From: a virus
Virus record (IMG/VR): IMGVR_UViG_3300039412_000400
Span: 1 to 53,143 of that record
DNA: 53,143 bases
Strand: one strand, 5' to 3'
The stretch's first letter is position 1, and every line of letters begins with the position of its first letter. The notes under the pieces are model-generated. The model saw only the letters and a list, made by a program, of their open reading frames with translations, had not been told where the DNA came from and did not search any database. Positions 8,441 through 50,537 of the stretch are shown here, one piece after another. Position numbers and translations under genes: made by a program.

Positions 8441-9490
8441 ATGAAGACATGTAAATCTTGTGGAATAACAAAAGAATTAGACAATTTTTCCAAAAATAAA
8501 CGAGAGCCAGACGGGCTGCAATCGCGCTGTAAAGAATGCTGCAAGCAATACCGAGAACAAAATAAAGAGAAAAATAAAAATCGCGATGTTACTCAAATAA
8601 CGTCCCTAGAATGCACTAAATGTGGATTAACTAAGGACGTTATTTATTTTTCTACAAAAGAAAATGGTCCTCGCGGATTTGATTATTGGTGTAAAGAATG
8701 TCGCAAGAGTTATCTTTCTCAATACAGAGATGATAATGCAGAAAAAACAAAAGAATATGATCGTAAAAGGATCGCAGAAAGGATTCAGTGGCTTCAAGAA
8801 TTAAAATCTGATACTCCGTGTATGGATTGTGGCCAAATATATGAGCCATATTGTATGGATTATGATCATGTGCCTGGCCGTGGTCAGAAAATTAAAAGTG
8901 TTACTAGAATGGTGTTGGATAATACTCCAAAAGACAAGATTTTAGAAGAAATTAAGAAATGTGATTTAGTATGTTTATTGTGTCATAATAAAAGAACATT
9001 TGATCGTTTCAATGAAACGTTGGGAACAACTAGAAAATATAAACCACATCAATTACGAAATATCAATATGATAAATACATTTAAGACACAACCTTGTGCT
9101 ATGTGTGGCAAACAATATGAATCATATAATATGCAAATTGACCACATTGATCCGACCACTAAATTATATGACGTGTGCAATCTAAAAAACTTTAAGGTTT
9201 CTACATTATTGGCTGAACTTGCTAAATGCCAAGTTTTATGTGCATTATGTCATCGTAAAAAATCTATTACAGAACAAAAAGAAGATAAATATTCCGAGCC
9301 ACGAGATAAGCCACCAAAACGAGTAGAATTATTTTATGATCCGATAACTAATACAAAAGAGTGCGGCCTATGTCATCAAATTAAAAATGCAGAACAATTT
9401 AGAAAAAGAAAAGACACAACATCAGGTTTAGATACCTATTGTAAAGAATGTTTTAACAAATATAGACGAGAAAGAAGACAATATGAATGA
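8441..9490 (+). CDS. HNH endonuclease with two HNH domains and three zinc fingers
   Basis: Likely free-standing homing endonuclease (349 aa). In order: two N-terminal zinc fingers of the form CxxCGxxK...F...CKEC (about 4-34 and 57-87), a first HNH module (PCMDCG..., YDHVPGRG, then CLLCHNKRT, about 125-190), a second HNH module (PCAMCG..., IDHIDP, then CALCHRKKS, about 216-280), and a third finger of the same CxxC...CKEC type at the C-terminus (about 312-343). Duplicated HNH in one chain is unusual. Codon use is very AT-rich. A GTTATATA box lies 8 bases upstream and no Shine-Dalgarno is present. It overlaps the next small gene by 8 bases. Confidence 0.85.
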   Translation: MKTCKSCGITKELDNFSKNKREPDGLQSRCKECCKQYREQNKEKNKNRDVTQITSLECTKCGLTKDVIYFSTKENGPRGFDYWCKECRKSYLSQYRDDNAEKTKEYDRKRIAERIQWLQELKSDTPCMDCGQIYEPYCMDYDHVPGRGQKIKSVTRMVLDNTPKDKILEEIKKCDLVCLLCHNKRTFDRFNETLGTTRKYKPHQLRNINMINTFKTQPCAMCGKQYESYNMQIDHIDPTTKLYDVCNLKNFKVSTLLAELAKCQVLCALCHRKKSITEQKEDKYSEPRDKPPKRVELFYDPITNTKECGLCHQIKNAEQFRKRKDTTSGLDTYCKECFNKYRRERRQYE

Positions 9491-35306: not shown

Positions 35307-35346
35307 AGCCAAGCTGCCCATCCTATTCGGTTGCTTGGCTTTTTTG
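35307..35346 (+). terminator. intrinsic terminator shared with end of LAGLIDADG gene
   Basis: An 8-bp stem (AGCCAAGC 35307-35314 with 35333-35340) is followed by TTTTT. The right arm also encodes the last residues of the convergent endonuclease gene on the minus strand. Confidence 0.88.
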
Positions 35347-36165
35347 TTTCTGATATTCTATGAACTCTTGATATTTTTCGTATTTTCGTGGGAGATAAAT
35401 GGTTGCGTCTTTGTATAGCCAATCAAGAACTTGACGAACTTGTAAGTTCCCGCCAACAGATAAAGAGGTTGTTATTTGATTTGTTTTTGGTTTGCATAAT
35501 GATTTAGAACAGGTAATATTAAGTTCATCTTTTAATAGTTTTGAAGTCTCATTACAAAATTGTTTAGTAGATACGATTTTCCATATTGTATTAATCGTCT
35601 TTTTTTTCTTAAACTGGTTTTTATAAATTGTTCCATCACCATCACTATATCCTCTAAGAAAATGTCTGATAAACTCTTTGGGAACAGTTATGGGGAACTC
35701 TAAAATTAGCGATTTATTTGGAACGCATCCATGTGAAACGAGTTGTTCACATATCTCTTTTTGATTAATTCTAAAATAAGAATATGTATTACTAGATTTT
35801 TTATTTCGTGTTATTTTTATTGGAGATGACGGAGACATAATATCTCGAAAGTTTTCTATAATATATTGATCATTAGATTTTAGTTTAAGCGTCATACAAT
35901 AGTTATTATTATTAGTTTGTACATTACCATCAGCATACAACAATCCAAGAAAATATGCGCTATTCTCGCTATTGATCTCTTGAAAAAACTGAATATTTAT
36001 GTCTGTATAAACAATTTTTTTACCAACTCTTGTTGTAATATTTTTGCGTCGTAAAACCGCACTTACACCAGTTTGTGTACAACCAATTAGTATAGCAATT
36101 TCTTTTTGAGTTTTTCCAGTATTGTATAAGTCAATCATTTCTTGCATTTTTTGCTCTGAAAACAT
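35323..36165 (-). CDS. LAGLIDADG homing endonuclease with N-terminal HTH
   Basis: 280 aa from ATG 36165, which has GGAG eight bases upstream; the frame extends to 36195 without a better start. An HTH fills residues 1-45 (KTQKEIAILIG...GVSAVLRR). Two LAGLIDADG helices are visible: AYFLGLLYADG (70-80) and FLRGYSDGDG (169-178), each ending in the acidic metal residue. It is a paralogue of the N-terminal part of the fusion at 47650. Free-standing, on the minus strand and convergent with the upstream structural genes. Its stop codon lies in their terminator hairpin. AT-rich codons. Confidence 0.92.
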   Translation of the reverse strand: MFSEQKMQEMIDLYNTGKTQKEIAILIGCTQTGVSAVLRRKNITTRVGKKIVYTDINIQFFQEINSENSAYFLGLLYADGNVQTNNNNYCMTLKLKSNDQYIIENFRDIMSPSSPIKITRNKKSSNTYSYFRINQKEICEQLVSHGCVPNKSLILEFPITVPKEFIRHFLRGYSDGDGTIYKNQFKKKKTINTIWKIVSTKQFCNETSKLLKDELNITCSKSLCKPKTNQITTSLSVGGNLQVRQVLDWLYKDATIYLPRKYEKYQEFIEYQKQKSQATE

Positions 36166-36185
36166 AATTTCACTCCATAAAATGA

Positions 36186-36193
36186 TATATAAC
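36186..36193 (-). promoter_or_regulatory. GTTATATA promoter for LAGLIDADG gene
   Basis: On the minus strand, TTGTTATATAT contains TATATA preceded by TG (extended -10), 20 bases before the start codon. Confidence 0.5.
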
Positions 36194-36280
36194 AATGAGA
36201 TACTAATTTTTGCTACGCATTGTACAAAAATAAATTATGAGGCGTTGGAGATACGACAATGGACTACGATTCTTAGATTA

Positions 36281-45292: not shown

Positions 45293-46267
45293 TTAGGCAC
45301 AGATTAATTTCTGTGCCTTTTCTTTTTGATATTCTTGAATTCGTTTGATCCAATCGTGAAATTGTTCGAGAGTAAGATTATTTTTAGCAAAATTACAGCG
45401 TATACAGCAAGGAACAATATTATCAATTGCGTGTGTTTTAGACGGATCAATTCTATCAATGCCATTATAATAGAAATTAGAGTTTTCTTTTGCTATTTGT
45501 GAAGCTTTTTTATCATTCAAATATGGATTACAACAATTAGTATTTTGGGCCCCACAATATGTACATGGTAATTGAGAATAAGTATAAAATGTTTGAAGAT
45601 CTATTTCCATAGTTTTATAATTTACTACATAATGTCTATAAGCCATTTTTAATGAATGAAGTATATATGTTTCTGGTAATTTTAGTAGGACTTGTGGTTT
45701 AATAAAATCAATATTTTTTAATGTATTAATATACTTATAAAAATCATTTAATGAGTAATCACATTTTGCACAATTACAAATAAGGCAACATGCAACTACA
45801 TTATTAGAAATATGTGGTAATAAATTATCAATTCTATCTAATCCGTTGTATGTAAAACTACCATTGTCTTTTGCATATTGTGATGATATATTTTTTGTTA
45901 AAAAATAGTTATATATATTTGATGGTCTATTTCCGCAATAAAAACAATTTTGCTGGCTAATATTAAACCATTCATCAAATGTTAATGTACACAATTTATC
46001 TTGATAACAATAGCTTTTCCACAATCTTCGTGCCGAAGCAATATGCGGCTTATATTTTCTATTGGCTTTAATTGCATATTTTACATTATTTTTTGATGCG
46101 TTTACTTTTAGACAACCACATGATTTAGTATTTCCAGATATAAGATGTGTAGTTGATACAATAGTTTTATTTCCACAATCACATATGCAATTCCAATATC
46201 CGCTATCATAAAATATTGGTGTTAGTTTTTCAAATTTTTGTCCAAGTAAATTAATTTTTTTAGCCAT
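45293..46267 (-). CDS. HNH endonuclease with two HNH domains
   Basis: 324 aa from ATG 46267; the frame extends to 46303 but the inner start is preceded by AAGAGA. The N-terminal 50 residues form a zinc ribbon typical of phage HNH proteins (CICDCG and SCGCLK). Two HNH modules follow: one with CFYCG, YNGLDRID and CLICN, and one with CTYCG, YNGIDRID and CIRCN, each ending in FxxWI/FYKYI-type helices. Duplicated HNH is unusual. AT-rich codons. The stop codon and last four residues lie inside the terminator hairpin of the upstream gene on the other strand. Confidence 0.88.
   Translation of the reverse strand: MAKKINLLGQKFEKLTPIFYDSGYWNCICDCGNKTIVSTTHLISGNTKSCGCLKVNASKNNVKYAIKANRKYKPHIASARRLWKSYCYQDKLCTLTFDEWFNISQQNCFYCGNRPSNIYNYFLTKNISSQYAKDNGSFTYNGLDRIDNLLPHISNNVVACCLICNCAKCDYSLNDFYKYINTLKNIDFIKPQVLLKLPETYILHSLKMAYRHYVVNYKTMEIDLQTFYTYSQLPCTYCGAQNTNCCNPYLNDKKASQIAKENSNFYYNGIDRIDPSKTHAIDNIVPCCIRCNFAKNNLTLEQFHDWIKRIQEYQKEKAQKLICA
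45295..45327 (+). terminator. terminator overlapping end of HNH gene
   Basis: A 9-bp stem (AGGCACAGA 45295-45303 with 45310-45318) and a T-rich tail. It ends the second surface-protein unit. Confidence 0.88.
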
Positions 46268-46307
46268 AATAATCTCTTTTGTGTTAGCAGCTCGCACTAT
46301 CATATTG

Positions 46308-46429: not shown

Positions 46430-47443
46430 ATGAATTTCTTTAACGGACAAGGCCAGCTTAATGCCGGCTCATTCTCAGAAGCTTTACAGCAATTAGTAAA
46501 ATATGCTTCGATCCTTGAGAATAATGTTCCAGCAAATCAAGGACTTGCGGGACAGCCTTCTATGAGTGACGAAGCCAGGGACGAGTTGATAGCGAGAGCT
46601 ATACAAACTCAGGACGGTAAGATCGCGTTAGCACAAGCAATGGCAAATCCGATCAGAAGGAATTTAGATTATCATGGAATTGCGAGACGTGCATTAGTAG
46701 TTGATCCATTACCACAGGGTGCCATTCCAACTTACGATAGAGATATCGATGTTACCGCAGTTGTAATCTCCTCAAACGGCACAGGCCCAGAGTCTCGTGT
46801 GTTTGGTGACAGAATTGTTGTTCCAGAATTTGAGGTTTTCGCGAACCCAACAGTCCGTATCGCAGAAGTCAAGCGACGCAGATTTAACGTTATTGACAGA
46901 GCGGTGCAGAAGGCTCGTCAAGAGATTATGGCCCAAGAAGATGCAAACATCTTTGCGGCACTCGATGCGGCATCAAACGTTGAAAACACGTTGACCGATA
47001 TCGCAGACTCAGGTCTACTCAAGAGGGACTTGGTTGAGATCAAGCAGCAAATCGACCGTTGGGACCTTGTCACCACAAAGTATTTCATGAATATCAATGA
47101 ATTCACTGATATCTTGAAGTGGGGAGCAGGCGGCGGACAAGGCGTAGGTGGCGGCGATTTCGATCCAGTCACAATGCGTGAAGTTCTACAGACTGGGCTT
47201 TATGCTCACATCTGGGGCACAGACATTATGGTCTCAAAGATCGTTCCACCAGGTAGCATCTATGGCGTAGCAGACCCTGAGTTTGTTGGAGTAATGCCTA
47301 TACGTCAAGACATCGAGGTTTTGCCAGCGGATGAACCAAAGCAGCTCAAACTCGGATGGGTCGTTAGCGAAATCATAGGCCTAGCGATCGTAAACCCACG
47401 TGGTTGTGCTTGTGGCCGCAAATCAGTCGTTATTGGCGCATAA
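46430..47443 (+). CDS. major capsid protein, HK97 fold
   Basis: 337 aa. The pattern fits the HK97-fold capsid of large phages: an N-arm, a region around LDYHGIARRALVVDPLPQGA, then FEVFANPTVRIAEVKRRRF leading into a long spine helix (about 150-172, RAVQKARQEIMAQED), and a C-terminal axial part with RQDIEVLPAD. GGAG just before the ATG is strong. GC-richer codon use and a unit with its own promoter motif and terminator fit very high expression. The C-terminal end has a GCACGRK segment whose role is unclear. Confidence 0.93.
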   Translation: MNFFNGQGQLNAGSFSEALQQLVKYASILENNVPANQGLAGQPSMSDEARDELIARAIQTQDGKIALAQAMANPIRRNLDYHGIARRALVVDPLPQGAIPTYDRDIDVTAVVISSNGTGPESRVFGDRIVVPEFEVFANPTVRIAEVKRRRFNVIDRAVQKARQEIMAQEDANIFAALDAASNVENTLTDIADSGLLKRDLVEIKQQIDRWDLVTTKYFMNINEFTDILKWGAGGGQGVGGGDFDPVTMREVLQTGLYAHIWGTDIMVSKIVPPGSIYGVADPEFVGVMPIRQDIEVLPADEPKQLKLGWVVSEIIGLAIVNPRGCACGRKSVVIGA

Positions 47444-47472: not shown

Positions 47473-47512
47473 ATTGGGCCCGGGTATTAGGTTACTCGGG
47501 CCCAATTTTTTA
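47473..47512 (+). terminator. strong terminator after major capsid gene
   Basis: A 10-bp perfect GC-rich stem (47473-47482 with 47497-47506, ATTGGGCCCG arms) is followed by TTTTTTAT. Confidence 0.95.
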
Positions 47513-47519
47513 TATTCGA

Positions 47520-47593
47520 TTTACGGTTCGTCAGTTTAAATTGTCGTTATAGTGGTATTTTTTACGGTTCGTGTGTTATTTTTTACGGTTCTT
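47520..47593 (+). repeat. three phased direct repeats upstream of fusion gene
   Basis: TTTACGGTTC[GT]T occurs at 47520-47531, 47561-47572 and 47582-47593. Starts are 41 and 21 bases apart, close to four and two helical turns, so they could be a protein-binding array before the promoter at 47596-47623. Confidence 0.85.
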
Positions 47594-47623: not shown

Positions 47624-47649
47624 CGTTGTGACAGCAAAGGAGCCGTACC

Positions 47650-49719
47650 ATGAAAAAACTAGCAAATGAGCAGATTTCAGAAATTATCGCGCTATATCAA
47701 CAAGGCGTGCCGCCAAAAATTATTGGAGAAAAGTTTGGCATTTTTAATAACAGTGTTACGCGCATCTTACGTAAAAAAGGCATTGATCGCAATCAATTAG
47801 AAAAGGTTAATGATGAAGATGTCAAATACTTGATTGAACAATATATTGCTGGCAAATCATCTACACTTATAGCGTGTGAACTTGACATTTGCGATACTAC
47901 CGTTGTAAGGATACTCAGGCGCAATAATATTACTATACGGCCAAATGAAGATAATAAGCGAAAATACAAGATCGATCAAAATTATTTTCATGCCATTGAT
48001 ACCGAAGAAAAGGCCTATTTTTTAGGGCTATTATATGCTGATGGTAATTTGTCTAATACACGCCATGACGTAAGATTATGCCTACAAAAAGAAGATAGCG
48101 ATATTGTTGAGAAGTTTTCTAGAGCAATATATGGATTTGCTAAAACCTATCAAACGGAAGCTACATTGCAAGACGGATCTGTTAGATATTATGTAAACGC
48201 GCCAATATATAGTAAACAAATACATCACGATTTAGTTAAATTGGGGTGTACGCCGAATAAAGCATTTGATATTCGTGTGCCAACATTTTTGTCAGCAGAA
48301 TTGCTTCGTCATTTTATTCGTGGATATTTTGATGGCGATGGGTGTATTAGTATTGCTAATGTAAATAAGCCAGTAATTGACTTTAGTTCTAATGCTATTT
48401 TCATTAGAGAACTAATTCCGATTTTAGAGTCAAATGGAATTAAATGTGGCAAATTATGTCTAAATAAAGAGAACGAATTATCTGGAAGCGTTCAACTAAC
48501 AAGCCTAGATAATGTTGTAAAGTGCTATAACTATTTATATGATGGCTGCACTATTTATATGAACAGAAAATACAACACATTTCAAGAGCTGTTACGCGTG
48601 CAAAAAGACAAATGCGATCGTAAAACTGGTAAAATATGCAATATAAACAATTATGGAACAACATTTATACCAACATACAATGACACAATACTAACTAGTG
48701 ATAACATTAAAATTATGAGCGCCGAGCAAAAAGAAGATGTCGCACAGTTTTTGCTATCTTTTTATAGGCAGCATGGATTTCCATATCCAATACTGGAAGA
48801 CGTGGAATTGATACGACAATTTGCTGCACTTAAAAATACGAATGTTGATACGATAGAGAAAGATCATATATTGCGTACAGATAACCAGTCTGGCTCCAGA
48901 ATAACTCGACATTTTTCACCACATTTTTTCGAAGTAAAATCTGGTATTGATACTTCTTGGCCGAGCCTATTAGAAGCTTTTGAGAGCGATAAACTTCTAC
49001 TACACACCATCAAAAATAGATTGGGATATAACTATGGTATGACTGGAAATATGCTACGACAGGGGCTAGCAAACTCAAAAATAGCTTTCAAGGCTAGCAC
49101 ATTTAATACTGTTGTTGCTAAATACATTTATTCCAAATACACAAAAGAAAACAGCATAATTTACGACTACTCAATGGGTTTTGGACAAAGATTGACTGCA
49201 GCATTGTCGCTTCCATACCACATCAAATATGTGGGAGTGGATGTTTGGGACAAGTCATATGAAAGTAATCAAAAGATTTTTGCGTTCCTTAATAAAAATG
49301 TACCGTTTCTAAACAAAGAGGCAGAGCTTTATTGTATTGGATCGGAAAATTATTGTGCCAACGAAATGATTGGAAAAGTAAATGTTGCTTTTTCTAGCCC
49401 ACCATACTATATTTTGGAGCACTACACTGATGATGAAACGCAGGCATATGCTAGTGGCAATTATTTGAAGTTTTTAGATTGGTGGCGAGCAACTACTAAC
49501 AATGTTGATCGGCTATTGGCAAAAGATGGAGTATTCATTATAAACGTGAATAATATTGTGGATGGATTTAATATTGGCGAAGATATGTGCGGAATAATAA
49601 AAGAGAAAGGCTATGTTTTGGAGGAAACATATAGGATCAGGCTTACCAGAAACCTTCAATTTGCCAACAAAACCGGAACACACAAATATGAGCCAATTTA
49701 TGTTTTCAGGCGCGGCTAA
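47650..49719 (+). CDS. fusion of two HTH units, LAGLIDADG endonuclease and DNA adenine methyltransferase
   Basis: 689 aa. Residues 1-45 and 50-95 are two HTH units. Then comes a LAGLIDADG nuclease with AYFLGLLYADG (122-132) and FIRGYFDGDG (222-231), closely like the protein at 35323. After about residue 345 begins a methyltransferase: a conserved lead-in (FYRQHGFPYPILEDVELIRQ, then HFSPHFFEV), motif I YDYSMGFGQRL (505-515, AdoMet site), and motif IV SSPPYY (582-587), the [DSN]PP[YF] catalytic site of N6-adenine or N4-cytosine enzymes, with DGVFIINVNN after it. The C-terminal end fits the target-recognition or last motif region. AAAGGAG sets ATG 47650. No frame break is seen, so the fusion looks intact. 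The two enzymes may cut and protect related sites, by inference. Confidence 0.88.
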   Translation: MKKLANEQISEIIALYQQGVPPKIIGEKFGIFNNSVTRILRKKGIDRNQLEKVNDEDVKYLIEQYIAGKSSTLIACELDICDTTVVRILRRNNITIRPNEDNKRKYKIDQNYFHAIDTEEKAYFLGLLYADGNLSNTRHDVRLCLQKEDSDIVEKFSRAIYGFAKTYQTEATLQDGSVRYYVNAPIYSKQIHHDLVKLGCTPNKAFDIRVPTFLSAELLRHFIRGYFDGDGCISIANVNKPVIDFSSNAIFIRELIPILESNGIKCGKLCLNKENELSGSVQLTSLDNVVKCYNYLYDGCTIYMNRKYNTFQELLRVQKDKCDRKTGKICNINNYGTTFIPTYNDTILTSDNIKIMSAEQKEDVAQFLLSFYRQHGFPYPILEDVELIRQFAALKNTNVDTIEKDHILRTDNQSGSRITRHFSPHFFEVKSGIDTSWPSLLEAFESDKLLLHTIKNRLGYNYGMTGNMLRQGLANSKIAFKASTFNTVVAKYIYSKYTKENSIIYDYSMGFGQRLTAALSLPYHIKYVGVDVWDKSYESNQKIFAFLNKNVPFLNKEAELYCIGSENYCANEMIGKVNVAFSSPPYYILEHYTDDETQAYASGNYLKFLDWWRATTNNVDRLLAKDGVFIINVNNIVDGFNIGEDMCGIIKEKGYVLEETYRIRLTRNLQFANKTGTHKYEPIYVFRRG

Positions 49720-49817: not shown

Positions 49818-50537
49818 ATGCTTTTACCATTACCAGACGTTTTTGACATATATGATTTGATATCAAGCGGCTCAAAAGATATTAATGTTCGCAATCAATC
49901 AAGAATGCTTAGAAAAGCCGCATTTGACACATTATGTCCAAAAGATGGGTTCACAAAAGTAGCATTTGATACACGTCGTATTGATCAAGAAACTGGTTTT
50001 AATCCAAGACGTGGATTACAGAATTATAATCGAAGTGAAGCATTTGTTAGCGAAGCAATGTCGCAAAAAGTAAAAAACTTTGCGAAACTTCGCACAGTTC
50101 TCAATACAATTCACGATAAGTATGGCAGAGAACATGAATGGCAAGATTCTAATGCGCGTGTTCTGCTTTCAACGCTTGATAATGGATTAAGAACATTCAT
50201 AAAAGACGGCGATTTCACTGATAGTCAGCCATCAATGGGCAGTTTTGATTATATTGAAGAGCTTCTTCATGTTCGATATAGACTTGGCTTCGATGATCTT
50301 ACAAAACTTGGTGAGCAAGAACTTGAACATATTATTCTTTCTAAAGATGAAGATTTGCTTCATAAAGACATGAACCATGCACTTGAAATTAGAAAATCAG
50401 ATATTGGAAAAGAAAATTACAATGATCTGATTGAGAAGTTATTAGCTGATTGTCGAGCAAGTGCTGAACACCCAAATGTTGAACGAGAAATCACCATTAG
50501 AGTTAGAGATACGTTTTTGGAGAAGAAAGGCGCCTAA
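49818..50537 (+). CDS. hypothetical virion-block protein
   Basis: 239 aa, charged and helical, without cysteines in a metal pattern and without membrane spans. AGAGG (49809-49813) precedes the ATG. A near-match to the late motif occurs at about 49735 (CTAATAAA...CATA). It is three bases before the next structural gene. A connector or tail-completion role would fit position but I do not recognise the family. Confidence 0.66.
   Translation: MLLPLPDVFDIYDLISSGSKDINVRNQSRMLRKAAFDTLCPKDGFTKVAFDTRRIDQETGFNPRRGLQNYNRSEAFVSEAMSQKVKNFAKLRTVLNTIHDKYGREHEWQDSNARVLLSTLDNGLRTFIKDGDFTDSQPSMGSFDYIEELLHVRYRLGFDDLTKLGEQELEHIILSKDEDLLHKDMNHALEIRKSDIGKENYNDLIEKLLADCRASAEHPNVEREITIRVRDTFLEKKGA

Follow-up and report, generated by a model that had tools for sequence, protein, structure and literature searches.

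A LAGLIDADG nuclease joined to an amino-methyltransferase beside a phage major capsid gene: a candidate self-protecting homing element

The fusion gene and its domains

The window considered here, a stretch of 53,143 nucleotides of phage DNA analysed as a whole, carries 3' of its major capsid gene one open frame in which two HTH units, a LAGLIDADG nuclease and a methyltransferase follow one another in a single chain (Table 1). The ATG of this fusion gene is preceded by AAGGAG, a ribosome-binding-like sequence, at positions 47637-47642. An earlier note on this DNA had described an intact 689-aa frame with two HTH units, a full two-motif nuclease and a methyltransferase with motif I and SSPPYY, and each of these assignments agrees with the family profiles, the open frame and the modelled helices reported below. 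An AlphaFold2 model of the fusion protein, made with 43 aligned relatives, has a mean pLDDT of 92.5 and a pTM of 0.69; the single domains are predicted with confidence, their mutual arrangement less so. All of the evidence presented consists of sequence and predicted structure, and derives from metagenomic contigs.

Table 1. Genes and sequence features at the capsid-side locus, with the GNAT-like loci of related contigs
Feature	Position	Strand	Remarks
HNH/endonuclease VII-like homing-type gene	45293..46303	-	PHROG 1035/374; other side of capsid gene
Major capsid protein gene	46430..47443	+	PHROG 2522, E 3e-78; 53% to Bacillus phage G gp27
Terminator-like hairpin	47473..47506	+	capsid gene/fusion gap; 14-bp stem and T tract
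Three direct repeats, TTTACGGTT(C)	47520..47590	+	copies at 47520, 47561, 47582; about 21-bp register
HTH-HTH-LAGLIDADG-methyltransferase fusion gene	47650..49719	+	689 aa; ATG 47650, stop 49719; open frame
HTH unit 1, residues 6-42	47665..47775	+	model helices; weak Pfam HTH_7/HTH_23; Cbp1-like below cutoff
HTH unit 2, residues 55-91	47812..47922	+	model helices at 55-91; Pfam; Cbp1-like below cutoff
LAGLIDADG nuclease domain, residues 105-318	47962..48603	+	two motifs, single-chain type; LAGLIDADG_3, PHROG 4645, PI-PfuI fold
LAGLIDADG motif 1, FLGLLYADG, residues 122-132	48019..48045	+	catalytic D131
LAGLIDADG motif 2, IRGYFDGDG, residues 222-231	48316..48342	+	catalytic D230
Linker, residues 319-335	48604..48654	+	gap between nuclease and methyltransferase profile matches
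Methyltransferase, residues 336-689	48655..49716	+	class I Rossmann core preceded by a helical N-terminal part
Methyltransferase motif I, YDYSMGFGQRL region (DYSMGFGQR), residues 505-515	49156..49194	+	D506, G510, G512, R514
Methyltransferase motif IV, SSPPYY, residues 582-587	49393..49410	+	alignment
Downstream flank gene	49818..50537	+	adjoins capsid gene in empty-slot relatives
GNAT-like loci	L149:5233-6987; L185:2571-3323; L134:4638-5402; L140:6342-7136; L080:7552-8337; L007:5980-6777

The nuclease half is matched by the PHROG 4645 endonuclease profile over residues 16-316 (E 3e-57) and by Pfam LAGLIDADG_3 above its cutoff (E 4e-7). Both catalytic positions are conserved in the alignment, the residue corresponding to D131 being aspartate in 24/24 fused proteins and 95/95 solo relatives and that corresponding to D230 in 23/24 and 93/95, respectively. 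The best solved fold match of the nuclease part (model residues 117-321) is PI-PfuI (Z 18.3, rmsd 2.9 over 184 residues), with I-Tsp061I as a further match (Z 16.1). With its two motifs, catalytic acidic residues and LAGLIDADG fold, the domain has the structural features of a LAGLIDADG homing endonuclease. The tandem HTH region that precedes it (47665-47922) resembles Cbp1, a CRISPR repeat-binding HTH protein, with an E-value of 5e-12 that falls under the curated cutoff. A second, solo HTH-LAGLIDADG gene of PHROG 4645 is located at 35326-36195 on the minus strand of the window, and is about 35% identical to the nuclease part of the fusion.

In the methyltransferase half, the four marked residues of motif I are kept in 26/26 fused sequences, and the PP of motif IV is present in nearly all sequences with letters there. 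When the domain is searched alone, Pfam N6_N4_Mtase scores 36.3 bits against a cutoff of 26.7; the same profile matches 24/29 members of the methyltransferase family at E 0.01 or better, and PHROG 12517 covers fusion residues 464-638. A profile search of solved chains returned the modification methylase 2zie (E 2e-7) and the DNA cytosine-N4 methyltransferase 8s9n (E 7e-6). Relative to these beta-type enzymes the two matched parts are in permuted (reverse) order, and motif I (506) precedes motif IV (582), so the domain departs from the beta-class arrangement in which IV precedes I. Its model is of high quality (pLDDT 93.7, pTM 0.91), and the solved folds nearest to its Rossmann core are tRNA methyltransferases (Z ~18); no DNA methyltransferase is among the top 50 fold matches, a result that does not exclude a DNA enzyme.

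The AdoMet motif I, motif IV and the family score together point to an N6_N4 amino DNA methyltransferase of the PF01555-like type. Amino methylation of DNA, favoured by the sequence profile, is probably the best reading of its chemistry, with RNA a possible substrate by fold. The earlier note had called the domain a DNA adenine methyltransferase: the amino-methyltransferase part of that name is supported by the Pfam and profile matches, and the choice of adenine is without support, given that SSPPY and the match to 8s9n make N4-cytosine at least as likely.

Solo HTH-LAGLIDADG proteins align to the first 320 residues of the fusion, and solo methyltransferases align end to end, from about residue 336 or slightly later to the C-terminus; in the fusion model the last helix of the nuclease side extends to residue 330. 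Because both halves align with complete solo enzymes, the gene consists of two whole genes joined, with neither one interrupted, and this weakens the earlier suggestion that the nuclease landed in a methyltransferase gene. In the model the nuclease core reaches from directly behind the HTH units to the linker, a layout that does not fit an intein. No Pfam match to a Hint-type intein domain was found in the fusion protein, and the window gave no Rfam match at the gathering threshold, which divergent group I/II introns could escape.

Recurrence, the capsid-side slot and the history of the cassette

Scans of viral contigs, plus one scan of genome contigs, recovered the same domain order many times. 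The 35 fusion ORFs found represent 24 that are distinct by nuclease sequence, including the window protein, and thus at least 23 further distinct fusions occur in other phage contigs, with identities to the window protein from 54% down to about 25%. Among the 24, five were found via the capsid gene and 19 by scans made without it. In the closer relative pairs tested, dN/dS is about 0.15-0.3 in the nuclease and methyltransferase halves alike, and both halves are, judged by these ratios, under purifying selection. The homologous fusions, the kept catalytic residues and the dN/dS values together mean that a gene-joining sequencing error cannot explain the fusion. The earlier note had proposed abandoning its reading if the halves were joined here only through such an error, or if either had lost its catalytic residues; neither is the case. 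The contig of one relative, L289, had been assigned to the bin of a Chitinophagales genome.

Of the 24 distinct fusions, 23 are located at the 3' end of a major capsid gene like that of phage G. The remaining one comes from an unrelated phage (L208) and counts as a separate fusion; it starts 117 nt past a different major head gene (PHROG 138), and a search with the L208 protein returned its own contig alone. Some variation exists in the local arrangement, as a solo nuclease stands between the capsid gene and the fusion in L006, L144, L154 and L159, and the two genes are tail to tail in L010. In relatives whose slot is empty (L059, L108, L109, L111, L112, L121 and L133), the downstream flank gene comes straight after the capsid gene. 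Other contigs have a solo LAGLIDADG gene, an HNH gene or some unrelated accessory gene in the slot, which is therefore a general hot spot for accessory genes. Relatives of the HNH/endonuclease VII-like gene that flanks the window's capsid gene opposite the fusion fill the post-capsid slot in many contigs, and another HNH/endonuclease VII-like gene is present at 8441-9490 of the window. Several relatives (L005, L007, L139, L149, L159 and L289) have a capsid gene that is split, apparently by introns.

Capsid similarity alone was used to select a set of 54 distinct slots. Eight of them hold the methyltransferase, and 8/8 of these also hold a homing-type nuclease (Fisher p 7e-5), an association driven by the fusions themselves. 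When the fusions are left out, 3/3 methyltransferase slots contain a nuclease (p 0.02; three loci only). A methyltransferase is lacking from 11/19 nuclease-occupied slots, and thus protection by such an enzyme would not be obligatory. In 20 large contigs of this clade, copies of the methyltransferase were found only in the slot, bar three marginal partial matches.

A short repeat array lies between the capsid gene and the fusion gene, where TTTACGGTT is present in three copies as compared with 0.34 expected in the whole window. Related arrays with a period of about 22 bp, and a sequence of roughly [A/G]GGTT[C/A]NNNTGC, precede the corresponding genes in L007, L138, L139 and L289, and a single copy precedes that of L005. 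Given that the L007 gene has no nuclease and still keeps its array, the array is tied to the HTH part, and its likeliest role would be that of an autoregulatory operator. We also considered the array as the homing site, since the repeats resemble the reverse complement of the conserved capsid codons for PADEP, 116 nt before the capsid stop; this candidate was rejected because the match is at chance level. Two scans of viral contigs for similar arrays recovered the L138 and L139 contigs; in all other contigs that they returned, these genes are absent.

In a tree of the nuclease, fused members are interspersed among solo slot members, and a constraint placing the fused nucleases in one clade is rejected (lnL 353 lower, AU p 2e-150). 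In the methyltransferase tree, the fused, the HTH-only and most slot-linked solo forms make up one clade (98*) within a large phage family. These results indicate that fusion or fission happened several times. Across 23 fusions, nuclease and methyltransferase distances correlate closely with each other (Mantel r 0.82) as compared with the correlation of either with capsid protein distances (r 0.26-0.29), and L065 provides an extreme example, its capsid protein being 92% identical to that of the window and its nuclease and methyltransferase only 30% and 29%. Thus, the cassette moves as a unit, largely independently of the capsid gene. This mobility and the patchy occupation of the slot are indirect signs that the fusion gene may cut a long specific site and home.

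Separate and reduced forms also occur. Nuclease and methyltransferase are both present in the slot as separate genes in L155, L160 and L140, and the order in L185/L187 is capsid gene, solo LAGLIDADG, GNAT-like ORF and solo methyltransferase; at some loci with separate halves an HNH nuclease takes the place of the LAGLIDADG gene. A comparison of relatives with and without the nuclease segment, as the earlier note had proposed, revealed two HTH-HTH-methyltransferase genes (L007 and L149) that lack the LAGLIDADG part alone. Their junctions differ, and in the methyltransferase tree each falls with another group of fused enzymes, a pattern that reads as two independent nuclease losses. The L007 gene is followed by an HNH gene that overlaps its stop codon and then by a GNAT-like gene, as though one nuclease partner had been swapped for another.

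The GNAT-like protein (LPG_synthase_C, below cutoff) is encoded beside the methyltransferase or near the HTH-methyltransferase gene in 6/6 distinct loci (Table 1) and is fused to the nuclease in L149; it may represent a second enzyme that modifies DNA. Many other phages have related solo methyltransferases and lack this nuclease, and two family members are close together in L222, L237, L243-L245, L247, L250, L256, L257, L262 and L273.

A possible self-protecting homing element and its rivals

An intron homing nuclease is safe because its insertion splits its own target site. The cassette described here stands beside the capsid gene without interrupting it, and therefore its insertion cannot destroy a site there. 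We consider the chances roughly even that the gene encodes a mobile nuclease linked to the capsid gene, which serves homing or interference and has a protective methyltransferase of its own in the same chain, and relative to the other readings of the fusion this self-protecting homing idea fits best. The tandem HTH units and the LAGLIDADG domain would bind and cleave the DNA of a co-infecting, unmarked phage within or close to its capsid locus, and the cut would then be repaired from the genome with the cassette, or the rival phage would lose to that genome. In place of site disruption, the genome with the cassette would receive the mark of the methyltransferase, which the same HTH units would steer to protect the target. 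The intact domains, the recurrent fusion, the unfused pairs, the mobility as a unit, the purifying selection and the nuclease losses are observed; that the methyltransferase acts on DNA, that both enzymes share a site, that this site is near the capsid gene, and that protection operates in the cell with an advantage during co-infection, is inferred.

We put forward a more specific version more tentatively, at somewhat less than even confidence. The element would home under the protection of methylation, its target being left intact and marked by the methyltransferase on the same chain; such elements would have arisen repeatedly, and some relatives would have dropped the nuclease and retained HTH-methyltransferase as an immunity allele.

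Several observations support the protected-nuclease reading, including the position of 23/24 fusions at this capsid gene, though 19/24 were found without using it, and the separate L208 fusion, which also follows a major head gene. The recurrent fusion, the unfused pairs in the slot, the 8/8 co-occurrence, the nuclease-loss forms, the correlated nuclease and methyltransferase distances, the purifying selection and the near absence of methyltransferase copies outside the slot add further support. Other observations count against it, namely the nuclease-occupied slots without a methyltransferase, the widespread solo methyltransferases, the other accessory genes in the slot and the resemblance of the fold to tRNA methyltransferases. 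LAGLIDADG sites are long and methyltransferase sites are short, and thus matched specificity is not a given.

The main rival, which we judge unlikely but deserving of serious weight, is that the methyltransferase is anti-restriction cargo. It would shield the phage from restriction by its host, the nuclease would only make this useful gene mobile, and the fusion would let the pair spread together, with the targets of the two unrelated. Solo methyltransferases of the family are widespread in phages and are found beside replication genes, orphan methylases of phages are usually read as anti-restriction (PMC9957025), and a methyltransferase without LAGLIDADG, as in L007 and L149, suits cargo as well as immunity. 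However, this explanation does not account for the pairing of 8/8 slot methyltransferases with a nuclease, for the recurrent fusion, or for the retention of the HTH units with the methyltransferase after nuclease loss.

Distinctly less probable is a broad one-chain restriction-modification enzyme that cleaves whatever DNA of a competitor or the host is unmodified at a short motif, without homing, for superinfection exclusion or host DNA breakdown. The logic and composition of the fusion are as in Type IIC enzymes (PMC4081073), and a role for a homing nuclease in phage-phage interference is documented (PMC11620839). Against this, the long sites of LAGLIDADG nucleases, none of which has been described in restriction-modification systems (PMC9957025), do not suit such a role, and the fixed capsid-linked position and the movement as a unit point instead to homing.

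An accidental fusion without functional coupling, in which two accessory genes of a hot spot were joined by loss of a stop codon, is already disfavoured and we regard it as quite improbable. Although the slot is such a hot spot, with solo nucleases and solo methyltransferases both occurring there, the recurrent joining established by the constrained nuclease tree, the conserved order and linker, the purifying selection on both halves and the independent fusion in another phage lineage (L208) count against it. The earlier note had offered this as its simpler reading, which is further disfavoured by the methyltransferase kept after nuclease loss and the unfused pairs in the slot. We give very little credence to a spliced in-frame intein or intron within an HTH-methyltransferase gene: despite the segment-free forms that resemble an empty allele and the known in-frame element in a phage methylase (ShiLan, PMC11855218), LAGLIDADG alone accounts for the nuclease part of the confident model with no splicing domain seen, the segment-free junctions of L007 and L149 differ, and the solo HTH-LAGLIDADG proteins place the HTH units with the nuclease family.

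Known systems and significance

The nearest precedent is provided by the mycobacteriophage Taj_79-type methylases (Gosselin et al. 2023, PMC9957025), which likewise combine LAGLIDADG and a DNA amino-methyltransferase in one phage ORF with no detectable splicing element. In Taj_79, a single-motif LAGLIDADG_1 (63-160) is inserted in the methyltransferase just after DPPY, whereas the fusion joins two whole enzymes end to end, has tandem HTH units, is repeated and is located beside a capsid gene; no similarity between the two proteins was detectable in either half. The Taj_79-type gene is reported to be vertically inherited in nine related phages. The authors of that study considered whether it might act in restriction-modification and thought this improbable, as no such system with a LAGLIDADG nuclease had been described (PMC9957025).

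Type IIC/IIG enzymes (PMC4081073) share with the fusion the plan of an N-terminal endonuclease and an amino-methyltransferase in one chain. Most of them have a PD-(D/E)XK nuclease, a gamma-class NPPY methyltransferase and a specificity module, and the fusion differs from this majority form in having LAGLIDADG, SSPPYY and HTH units and in being a phage gene in a fixed capsid-linked slot. We file it as a LAGLIDADG nuclease plus amino-methyltransferase whose mode of action may resemble Type IIC restriction-modification.

Free-standing phage homing endonucleases (T4 Seg-type intronless homing, PMC1564403; PHROG 4645) occupy an intergenic slot beside a conserved gene, as does the fusion, and solo relatives of its nuclease occur in the same slot; unlike the fusion, the known examples have no methyltransferase. 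One published proposal treats homing enzymes as restriction-modification systems whose modification step is the insertion itself (PMC1564403), and the fusion may be a literal version of that proposal. The Lactobacillales fusion of a GIY-YIG Slx1-like nuclease with an NPPY methyltransferase, restriction-modification-like according to its authors (PMC1564403), also occurs together with unfused neighbours, but involves another nuclease fold, cellular genes and no homing locus. The intron endonuclease gp210 of PhiPA3 is a homing nuclease that acts against a co-infecting jumbo phage; it differs from the fusion in being HNH and intron-encoded, and the available part of its account describes no methyltransferase partner (PMC11620839). 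In the open-access literature, we found no LAGLIDADG-methyltransferase homing or restriction fusion beyond Taj_79.

Free-standing homing genes face a problem of self-immunity when their target is in an adjacent gene that cannot be disrupted. If the self-protecting homing idea is true, the methyltransferase in the same chain would be a direct answer to this problem, and the fusion would link homing genes with restriction-modification, the two being separate classes of selfish DNA. Through the recurrent fusions, the unfused pairs and the forms that lost the nuclease, the question of LAGLIDADG restriction-modification becomes testable with one expressed protein, and the family could be a source of nucleases that have long sites and come with their own blocking methyltransferase.
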